Assembly (NCBI GenBank): GCA_913060575.1
Contig: CAJXRR010000004.1
Location: forward strand, 1 to 40,381
DNA: 40,381 nt
Direction of reading: 5' to 3'
Source of the DNA: an uncultured Flavobacterium sp.
GTDB taxonomy: Bacteria; Bacteroidota; Bacteroidia; Flavobacteriales; Flavobacteriaceae
The stretch's first letter is position 1. Each line of letters opens with the position of its first letter. The notes below the pieces were generated by a model. It was not told where the DNA came from, did no database searches, and saw nothing but the letters and a program-made list of their open reading frames with translations. This document shows positions 26,830 through 30,380 of this stretch, piece after piece. The position numbers and the translations under genes were made by a program.

Positions 26830-28452
26830 ATGATTATAAAAGGTAACATTGTCGATATTCTAAATAGAAAGGTTTTTAAAGGTGAAATTAAAATCTCTAA
26901 TGGTAAGATTATATCGATCCGAAAATCAAATCATTCTATAGAAAATTATATTTTACCAGGCTTTGTTGATGCGCATATTCACATTGAAAGCTCTATGTTG
27001 GTTCCGTCAGAATTTGCAAAAATTGCGGTTGTTCATGGAACTGTTGCTACAGTTTCTGATCCGCATGAGATTGCCAATGTTTTAGGAGTAAAAGGTGTTG
27101 ATTTTATGATTGAAAACGGAAGTAAAGTCCCCTTGAAATTTAATTTTGGCGCACCGTCTTGTGTTCCAGCAACCTCTTTTGAAAGTGCAGGTGCAATTAT
27201 CGATTCTGATGATATTCAAAAAATGATGGCAAATCCAGCGATTAAATATTTAGCTGAAATGATGAATTATCCTGGAGTTTTATTTGACGATGAAGAAGTG
27301 ATGAAAAAAATAGCTTGGGCCAAACATTATAATAAACCTGTAGATGGTCATGCTCCTGGTTTACAAGGCGAAGCTGTTACCAAATATATTTCTGCCGGAA
27401 TTTCAACAGATCACGAGTGCTTTACCTATGAAGAAGCTTCAGAAAAGTTGCAGAAAGGAATGAAAGTCATCATAAGAGAAGGAAGTGCCGCAAAGAATTT
27501 TGAAGCCTTAATTGATTTATTACCTGAGCATTTTGAAAACATGATGTTTTGTTCTGATGATAAACATCCAGATGATTTATTATTAGGCCATATGAATCAA
27601 TTATGTCAAAGAGCCGTTGCAAAAGGAATGGATGTTTTTAAAATCTTACAAGCGGCTTGTGTGAATCCTGTAAAACACTATAATTTAGATGTTGGGTTAT
27701 TGCAAGAAGGAGACGATGCTGATTTTATTGTGGTTGAAGATTTAGAAAACTTTAATGTGAAACAAACTTTTATCAATGGAAAATTGGTTGCCGAAAATGG
27801 CACTTCTTTTGTGAAACATATAGAGTTTGAAGTCTTAAATAATTTTAATGTTGATAAGAAAATTGTTGCAGATTTTAAATTCCTTTCCAATTCAAATAAG
27901 ATTCGCGTAATTGAAGTTTTAGATGGAGAATTGGTAACCAATGAAATTGTTTGTGATGCTTTGAAAGTAGATGGAAATTTAGTTTCTAATACAACAGATG
28001 ATATTTTAAAAATGACCGTGGTAAATCGTTATCAGAATTCTGAACCCTCTATTGCATTTATCAAAAATTTTGGATTAAAAACTGGAGCGATTGCTAGTTC
28101 TGTTGGGCACGATTCTCATAATATTATTGCAGTTGGAGCTTCGGATGAAATGATTTGTAAAGCGGTTAATGTATTAATTGAAAACAAAGGCGGAATTTGT
28201 ATTGTAAATGAATCTAGTGAAAAAGTAGTTGCTTTACCAGTAGCAGGAATTATGAGTGACCAGCCAGCAGAAATTATTGGAAAATCTTATGCAGTATTAG
28301 ATGCTTTAGCTAAAGAAATGGGTAGTACTTTAAAGGCACCGTTTATGTCATTATCTTTTATGGCTTTGCTAGTAATCCCATCTTTAAAGTTAAGTGATAA
28401 AGGTCTTTTTGATGGAAATACTTTTAAATTCACTTCTTTGGAAGTTAAATAA
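26830..28452 (+). CDS. ade: adenine deaminase
   Basis: [66 protein letters not shown]. Confidence 0.95.
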
Positions 28453-28480
28453 TAATACATTTACCAAACAAATTAATCGT

Positions 28481-29071
28481 ATGACATTATTAGAAGAATT
28501 ACAAAGTAGAAGTGGAAATCAATGCGAATTATGTACTTCACAAAATAATTTAGAAGTGTATGAGATTCCGCCAACTTCAACAGGTGGAGTAGATGGAAGT
28601 TTATTAGCTTGTGATGTTTGTATTGGTCAAATTGAAAATCCAGAAACTACCGATGCTAATCATTGGCGATGTTTAAATGATAGTATGTGGTCTGAGTTTA
28701 GGTCTGTAAAGATAATTGCTTGGCGAATGTTATCTCGTTTAAGAAAAGAAGGTTGGCCTCAAGATCTCTTAGATATGTTGTATTTAGAGGAAGAGGATTT
28801 ACGTTTTGCTAAAGAAACAGGAGAGCATTTAGATGAAAATGAAAAAATAATTCATAGAGATGCCAACGGAGCCATTTTGCAAGCAGGAGATTCTGTTGTT
28901 TTAATTAAAGATTTAAAAGTAAAAGGATCTAGCATGGTTGCTAAACAAGGCACAGCAGTAAGAAGAATTTCTTTAGATCATGAAAATGCCAATTATATAG
29001 AAGGCAAAGTAGGGCCTACCCAAATTGTAATTATTACCGATTATGTCAAAAAAATGTCTGAGAAGGAGTAA
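28481..29071 (+). CDS. PhnA/YjdM-like zinc-ribbon protein
   Basis: CELCTSQNNLEVYEIPP...LLACDVC; C-terminal GDSVVLIKDLKVKGSSMVAKQGTAVRRI; start revised to ATG 28481. Confidence 0.85.
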   Translation: MTLLEELQSRSGNQCELCTSQNNLEVYEIPPTSTGGVDGSLLACDVCIGQIENPETTDANHWRCLNDSMWSEFRSVKIIAWRMLSRLRKEGWPQDLLDMLYLEEEDLRFAKETGEHLDENEKIIHRDANGAILQAGDSVVLIKDLKVKGSSMVAKQGTAVRRISLDHENANYIEGKVGPTQIVIITDYVKKMSEKE

Positions 29072-29118
29072 TATCTTGTCATTTACTCACTTTATTCAGT
29101 GTAAATATATTTACCAGA

Positions 29119-29143
29119 GGTGACTTCGAGAGCCTCAGTCACC
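29119..29143. repeat. dispersed hairpin repeat, reverse orientation
   Basis: GGTGACT-TCGAGAGCCTC-AGTCACC, perfect 7-bp stem. Confidence 0.75.
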
Positions 29144-29163
29144 ATAATCTTGATCATTAAGTT

Positions 29164-29192
29164 AAGATGGTTGAGGTTCTCGAAACCATCTT
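29164..29192. repeat. dispersed hairpin repeat, forward orientation
   Basis: AAGATGGTT-GAGGTTCTCGA-AACCATCTT, perfect 9-bp stem. Confidence 0.75.
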
Positions 29193-29279
29193 TTATCAAT
29201 CATCTTTTTTAGATAGTAGATTACTTCTTTATTTGTTTTCAACTGCGCTCTAACTTAGATTCCTTATAATGACATTCAA

Positions 29280-30380
29280 TTACAATAATCCTTTCTGCTT
29301 TTTATAAAAAGCATCTGCCTGATCTTGCATTAATTCCTTAGCTTTTTGACGTTTGTAGGCATACACATCTTCATCTACTTGGATATCTTTATAAACTTTT
29401 TCATTAATTATAACATCAGCATTTAATAGCTGATTTCTTTGATGTTTTTGTTGTTCTACCCAAGTTTTTACAGCGGTTTCTTCATCTTCTAACTTGAAAT
29501 CATATTCGCCTTTTGGAGAAACTAATTTGGCAAATATAGGAGATGTTTCAATCGCTAAAAACAATAAAAAGATAAAGAAAGATGGAAGCCAAGGTAGTTT
29601 TCCTAAAGCATTAATTCTAGCCATAAAACCATCAAAATTAGTAATGATTGGTTGTGTTTTTAAGATTGCTTTTTTCTGATCAAGTTGTAATTGCGTAATG
29701 GCATTCTCACTATTTTTAATCTTTTGAGTATTGTCTTTTTTTAAGATAGAGAGTTCTTGTAAGGCAGCATCATGTTTGTCTCTTTTTTCTTTATAAACGG
29801 GTCCTTTTCCTAATAATAACGTTCCTTTTCTTCCTTCAGCTTCAGATATATAAGTTTCATACAAATCGTTTACACTTTCTTCTTTATCAGAAATTTCTTT
29901 TTTAAGATTAGCGATTCCATTGTTTAATACTATTATTTCAGGTTCAAATTGTTTAGCTAGTTGATCTTTATTCTCAAGTGTCATTTGATTCTTCTCAGTC
30001 AATAAAACTTGATTGATTTCTTTTTCAAATATTTTTAATTCTAATGGTTTTGAAATCACCATAGCAATGATGACAGCCAAGATAATTCTTGGAGTTGCTT
30101 GTAATAATTCTTTCCACTTTGAATCGTTTTTTTTAATCGTAGAAACGATAAATCGATCTAAATTAAAAATGAGTAAACCCCAAATTAACCCAAAGAAAAT
30201 GGATGTAAAAATATTGTCAAAGACAGTGAATAAGGCATAACTAGCAGCCAAAGTGGCCATTACCGCTGTAAAGAAAACAGTAGCGCCAATACCTACGTAT
30301 TTATTTTGTTCACCGTTAGAGCAATTATCAATGAGTTTTTGGTCTACACCAGAACAAAGCAAGAAGAATTTTTTTAGCAC
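29280..30380 (-). CDS. DUF4407-like membrane protein
   Basis: TM segments flanking a long coiled coil; FGLIWGLLIFNLDRFIVSTIKK typical of DUF4407 as recalled. Confidence 0.8.
   Translation of the reverse strand: MLKKFFLLCSGVDQKLIDNCSNGEQNKYVGIGATVFFTAVMATLAASYALFTVFDNIFTSIFFGLIWGLLIFNLDRFIVSTIKKNDSKWKELLQATPRIILAVIIAMVISKPLELKIFEKEINQVLLTEKNQMTLENKDQLAKQFEPEIIVLNNGIANLKKEISDKEESVNDLYETYISEAEGRKGTLLLGKGPVYKEKRDKHDAALQELSILKKDNTQKIKNSENAITQLQLDQKKAILKTQPIITNFDGFMARINALGKLPWLPSFFIFLLFLAIETSPIFAKLVSPKGEYDFKLEDEETAVKTWVEQQKHQRNQLLNADVIINEKVYKDIQVDEDVYAYKRQKAKELMQDQADAFYKKQKGLL

Follow-up and report, generated by a model that had tools for sequence, protein, structure and literature searches.

The window analysed here (the whole stretch of DNA, 40,381 nucleotides in length) carries, in the gap between two convergent genes, a pair of head-to-head hairpins with nearly the same loop on unlike stems. 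It raises the question of what kind of element these hairpins represent and how such an element is copied. The source genome is a Polaribacter-like MAG of 2.2 Mb in 180 contigs (77% complete).

Two hairpins in the phnA–DUF4407 gap

Both hairpins lie inside a gap of 208 bp between the gene for a PhnA/YjdM-domain protein and that for a DUF4407 protein, the closest relatives of which are found in Polaribacter and other Flavobacteriaceae. The features of the locus are as follows.

28394–29071, plus strand: gene for the PhnA/YjdM-domain protein (Pfam PF03831; start codon uncertain), ending 47 bp before hairpin 1
29119–29192: inverted pair with unlike stems (BIME-like), from the fold and pair counts
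29119–29143, minus strand: hairpin 1, with the minus-strand reading GGTGACT-GAGGCTCTCGA-AGTCACC
29126–29127, minus strand: 2-nt GA bulge of hairpin 1, 3' of the tip, from the fold and variant pattern
29128–29136, minus strand: tip of hairpin 1, with GAG (29136–29134), triloop GCT (29133–29131) and CTC (29130–29128), from the fold
29164–29192, plus strand: hairpin 2, composed of AAGATGGTT (29164–29172), GAGGTTCTCGA (29173–29183) and AACCATCTT (29184–29192)
29173–29181, plus strand: tip of hairpin 2, with GAG, triloop GTT and CTC, from the fold
29182–29183, plus strand: 2-nt GA bulge of hairpin 2, from the fold and variant pattern
29280–30380, minus strand: gene for the DUF4407 protein (Pfam PF14362), the convergent downstream neighbour

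In plus-strand letters, hairpin 1 reads GGTGACT (29119–29125), TCGAGAGCCTC (29126–29136) and AGTCACC (29137–29143). Direct reading of the sequence confirms the preliminary description of this DNA in that both stems are perfect and the two loops, as reverse complements, are identical at 10 of 11 positions; the single difference (C/T) is located inside the 3-nt triloop. The DNA fold of hairpin 1 is at -6.5 kcal/mol (z -3.4) and that of hairpin 2 at -7.4 kcal/mol (z -4.6), and the R1 covariance model matches them with 41.8 bits (29117–29145, minus strand) and 36.6 bits, respectively. The region 29095–29235 folds at -40 kcal/mol (z -5.5), and in the single-strand fold of 29117–29194 the two tips are able to pair with each other, forming a longer hairpin. 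An imperfect inverted repeat (29152–29204; 21-nt arms, 76% complementary) extends hairpin 2. The exact sequence GAGGYTCTCGA is present at two sites only in the window, which are the two hairpins. Rfam covariance models applied at gathering score to the whole window yielded a tRNA only, and no family on the hairpins.

The orthologous phnA/DUF4407 gaps of other Polaribacter contain unrelated repeats or none, and the hairpins of the window are absent from them, so that no empty site is available there. A different repeat, GCGTTAGCGATTG...GCGACCTGAAAGG, is located 3' of DUF4407 in this gap in Polaribacter/Tenacibaculum (L084, L085, L093, L096 and L097), and L097 additionally contains two GAGCGCAGTCGA hairpins, TGTCA-tagged and arranged as an inverted pair.

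Copy number and covariation of the stems

A genome-wide pattern search recovers 24 exact copies of GAGGYTCTCGA in the 2.2-Mb genome, nearly all of them flanked by complementary arms. The pattern TGAGNNNNTCGAA occurs 55 times genome-wide as against 23 times for the reversed control pattern. In a sample of 432 kb, which is mildly biased since some contigs were picked for containing matches, a perfect stem of 4 bp or longer is present at 17 of the 43 GAGN4TCGA sites, whereas 20 dinucleotide shuffles of the same sample gave 12–28 sites with 0–1 such stems. The stems also covary. For 27 copies of the source genome, picked by their tip and required to have a visible stem, 86.8% of the cells are paired and covariation is 0.518, compared to 0.187 after shuffling and at most 0.218 after sliding. 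For 32 copies taken at about one per genome, again picked by tip and in which a perfect stem had to span 4 bp or more, 94.6% of the cells are paired and covariation is 0.482 (0.136 shuffled, at most 0.113 slid). The original observation thus survives both comparisons, with shuffled sequence and for stem covariation, by which it was to be refuted. Because the tip was used in the covariation sets, the model and the search patterns, its conservation is partly by construction; the covariation of the stems is less so.

The stems had earlier been called completely different. The AAGATGGTT arm of hairpin 2 is an outlier, and in the class with a GYT triloop 33 different 6-nt left arms are present among 111 copies. 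However, most arms match a common frame, GGTnnYT...ARnnACC, in which the two central pairs vary freely, and the statement is therefore too strong. A near-constant tip on stems that differ from copy to copy is as expected if something recognizes the tip, and the covariation in both copy sets fits the earlier suggestion that the loop is recognized, with the tip and not the stem as the putative target.

The loop as a folded, bulged tip

The predicted fold gives a better picture of the 11-nt "loop" as a tip that is itself folded, in which a GAG-GYT-CTC mini-hairpin is followed by a 2-nt GA bulge on its 3' side. The last N of GAGN4TCGA is C at 110 of the 172 stemmed sites, G at 62 and A or T at none, whereas A or T accounts for 150 of the 224 unstemmed sites; this bias provides independent support for the folded tip. 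Variants within the C class (110 stemmed copies) alter the triloop only, which is GCT in 70 copies and GTT in 29, followed by GCA, GCC, GCG, GTA, ACG, CGT and ATT. Relatives of the tip are GAGCYTGTC-GA and GAGCGNAGTC-GA, of which the latter would have a GNA triloop at its apex, and a further, 12-nt CGGAG form was found by pattern search. Counted jointly, tip and basal stem come to about 10 bp in the fold, interrupted by the bulge and capped by a loop of 3 nt.

Read on the GAG strand, pairs 1–7 of 138 GYT-tip copies contain 37 G-U cells as against 8 C-A cells, an excess which could mean a constraint on one strand or on the left arm. In the cross-genome set, G-U cells are few inside the stem, as expected for DNA palindromes.

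Distribution and genomic context

Matches to the R1 model number at least 32 in the source genome. Among 59 other genomes of the genus, one (G025) has 8 copies and the remaining 58 have 0–3 each, and matches are present in at least 29 of 301 genomes of the family and at least 30 of 396 genomes of the phylum Bacteroidota; these copy numbers are lower bounds, with 18–24 candidates per genome scored in the two largest searches. High-copy genomes are patchily spread across several Bacteroidota families, and those from other families, where read, carry either the GYT tip on different stems or a CTTG/CCTG tip. One strict pattern had no match in viral contigs.

The copies are dispersed and mainly intergenic, and close pairs are inverted in 39 of 56 cases (p = 0.005), usually with unlike stems; the comparison to REP/BIME elements made in the preliminary description is well founded in these respects. 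Two loci show composite inverted units that are repeated nearby: a CACACT/CAGTCT pair with a 28-bp gap is present three times at L174, and an ATGCCT/GTGGCT pair with a 51-bp gap twice at L438.

Copies within genes were found in other genera, in the genes for LeuRS, an alpha-2-macroglobulin-like protein, Mfd and LD-carboxypeptidase (names assigned by inspection, LeuRS excepted). Insertions are evident in the LD-carboxypeptidase and LeuRS genes, where the exact ends of the inserts were sought and not obtained, the relatives being too diverged. LeuRS genes of Flavobacteriaceae (L373, L402, L406, L407 and others) share two positions at which in-frame insertions, repeat-derived but differing from one another, are present.

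Relation to known palindromic repeats

In the GTAG REP/RAYT system, an unpaired GTAG (or GTGG) is located 5' of the hairpin and the cognate RAYT gene is flanked by the same repeat. The present element shares inverted pairs with GTAG REP/BIME repeats, and its bulged hairpin is similar to a class described as 'long hairpin with bulge' (PMC6006769), but it has no flanking RAYT, and its tip is constant while the stem is variable. The GTAG tag is absent from the flanks of the window hairpins, and the commonest flanks of the 111 copies differ from it. Rickettsia palindromic elements are palindromes inserted in frame into protein genes. The likeness to them, drawn by description only, is in-frame insertion, which here is found in other Flavobacteriaceae.

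The closest described kind of element is found among the REPs, chiefly in the superfamily with a CGTC tag (Di Nocera et al. 2013, PMC3733652, a survey which also mentions the Rickettsia elements). The members of this superfamily are short dispersed palindromes, reported from Bacteroidetes, which sit for the most part in intergenic regions flanked by convergent or co-directional genes, form mainly inverted dimers that are often heterodimers, lack flanking transposase genes and sometimes reside within genes or other palindromes (PMC3733652). The present element resembles them in its dispersed intergenic palindromes, inverted pairs with unlike stems, in-gene and nested copies, and lack of an associated transposase, as judged here from Y1_Tnp and DUF559. 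CGTC REPs have a terminal unpaired CGTC/TGTC, an 8–9 bp stem, a loop of 4–5 nt and a CCA-like tail (PMC3733652); the corresponding dimensions of the present element, tip and basal stem taken together, are the bulged 10 bp or so and the 3-nt loop of the fold. The two kinds differ in that the constant part of the present element is the tip with its GA bulge, neither stem nor tag. As the tag is missing from GYT-tip copies (GTCA on the left side in 0 of 111), these are not filed as members of the CGTC superfamily. A tag of this type is partly present in the relatives (18 of 80 copies with the CTTG tip and 9 of 37 with the CGNAG tip), and the TGTCA of these copies suggests kinship with CGTC REPs. 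Text searches of the literature turned up no account of the tip or of sequences related to it, although sequences given only in figures would escape such searches. The element is not a wholly new system; it is related to known REP/BIME repeats but is RAYT-less.

Nested copies, sister genomes and tandem arrays

Several copies in the source genome contain a second hairpin within the tip, of the type GAGG|TGTTATACTGAGCTTGTCGAAGTG|CTCTCGA. In one example, GGTGACT-GAGG[TGTTATACTGAGCTTGTCGAAGTG]CTCTC(A/G)A-AGTCAC, deletion of the bracketed part leaves the short tip. Orthologous loci can be compared between the sister genomes G345 and G134 (about 92% identity where compared). Four hairpin loci are conserved with stems identical or nearly so, and at four others the short tip in one genome corresponds to a different hairpin in the other. 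Both arms are retained at two of these four (L297/L316 and the pair at Y 238581), while one arm and the TC-GA side are retained at the other two (L195/L277 and L282/L303). Outright replacement has occurred at further loci (L289/L305 and L287/L311), and at L290/L300 and L292 copies are placed at the apex of a larger unrelated repeat. These comparisons revealed replacements only and no clean empty site with a target duplication, the trace by which a MITE with terminal inverted repeats would be recognized. At L305, L319 and L291, a perfect palindrome CCTGCCTGCCGGCAGGCAGG, whole or in part, is present where these hairpins would be or within their tip.

Close tips on the same strand form 12 groups, and inspection identifies eight of these as true tandem arrays (L072, L176, L194, L209, L212, L217, L363 and L425). 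All eight iterate the left arm and tip, with a full 3' arm on the last unit only (p = 0.008 versus no polarity). The array unit ends at TCG, TCGA or shortly beyond, which places the break near TCG|A.

Possible modes of spread

What is observed is a family with a conserved tip, covarying stems, patchy spread, inverted pairs, nesting, locus-level differences in the tip and no flanking RAYT. We consider it probable that the pair in the window represents two inverted units of a dispersed, REP-like DNA palindrome of Bacteroidota, which is copied in trans via an activity recognizing the tip. The unit would consist of a variable basal stem of about 6–9 bp and a constant 3-bp GAG/CTC stem, with a variable triloop (mostly GYT) and a 3' GA bulge. 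Such an element would be non-autonomous and might be copied as single-stranded DNA by a trans-supplied activity that recognizes the bulged tip, in which case any self-complementary stem would suffice. Both nested insertions and one-sided tandem arrays could then arise from an exchange of strands at the tip, on its TC-GA side, and an influence on the mRNA 3' ends of convergent genes would be secondary, if any.

A bolder form of this proposal, which we put forward only tentatively, is that the hairpins represent a RAYT-independent class of bulged-tip palindromes (stem, GAG-NNN-CTC or related tip, GA bulge) served by a putative nuclease or recombinase that is specific to the tip and acts near TC|GA; the tip would be the site of insertion or exchange for other hairpins, relatives included.

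The main rival to tip recognition is template switching during host replication, by which palindromes would be spread and repaired without a dedicated enzyme, quasi-palindrome correction matching the arms and slippage generating arrays and nesting. Tip differences with one arm kept, tandem arrays with a fixed breakpoint region and the rarity of half-corrected pairs are all consistent with it, and switching between existing copies could yield both nesting and arrays. However, template switching alone leaves unexplained why the same tip is found on other stems across families of the phylum, and why copy number ranges from 0 to at least 32 within one genus. Stems identical or nearly so at the four conserved sister loci imply that correction is not visibly fast, and the polarity shared by all eight arrays points to a sequence-specific event. 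We regard this explanation as possible but doubtful.

Mobilization by a RAYT (TnpA-REP), the link made in the preliminary description, is very improbable. The source genome does have a RAYT-like gene, its single Y1 transposase (185 aa, YIHQNP motif; L061 1396–1953, G000 contig C162), and atypical flanking structures have been reported for Bacteroidetes RAYTs (PMC6006769). However, this gene is bordered on both sides by GCGCGGATTTGTAATCCGTGC-type palindromes, which are a different repeat family, and no RAYT directly flanked by the present hairpins was found among 12 other copy-bearing genomes. Three of these 12 (G145, G297 and G319) have no Y1_Tnp match yet contain at least 13, 15 and 4 matches to the element, respectively, and the GTAG tag is missing. 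Association with a RAYT as a flanking gene was rejected on these grounds.

A role as a bidirectional transcription terminator, or as a 3'-end RNA element, under selection for control of the convergent genes appears very improbable, although the context of the copies is in its favour. The window hairpins occupy a convergent gap, and intergenic copies are located between convergent ORFs in 32 of 87 cases compared to 32 of 204 background gaps (p = 0.00016; crude ORF calls, background gaps drawn from the source genome only), while copies between divergent ORFs are rare. The stable fold and the excess of G-U over C-A cells also agree with an RNA element. Against this, a T tract, which in an intrinsic terminator comes after the G+C hairpin, is present behind only 10 of 110 copies and, on the opposite strand, behind 3 of 110, a terminator scan, limited to loops of 3–8, skips these hairpins, the orthologous gaps of other Polaribacter have other repeats or no hairpins, and copies in other species reside within genes. 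Termination as the main function is unsupported by the T-tract counts and the scan.

DUF559 (Vsr-like) endonucleases, examined because such domains lie in frame in LeuRS (G095 and G173) at the same position in two genera, where other genera have REP hairpins, can largely be dismissed as mobilizers, being absent from the source genome and G145 and directly bounded by these hairpins at none of 24 loci. A DUF559 domain also resides within a long RecG-like ORF (848–853 aa frame; RecG by inspection) at L417 (G191) and L418 (G065), which represent two genera.

The 2013 survey left open both the movement of CGTC repeats and the preference of inverted pairs for unlike stems (PMC3733652). RAYT-less palindromes remain an open problem, for which the bulged constant tip provides a concrete recognition element. 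If the bulged-tip class is real, recursive hairpin-in-hairpin elements and one-sided tandem arrays would be its result. The suspected breakpoint at TC|GA, together with the different states of the same loci in sister genomes, offers ready comparisons for the search for an enzyme.
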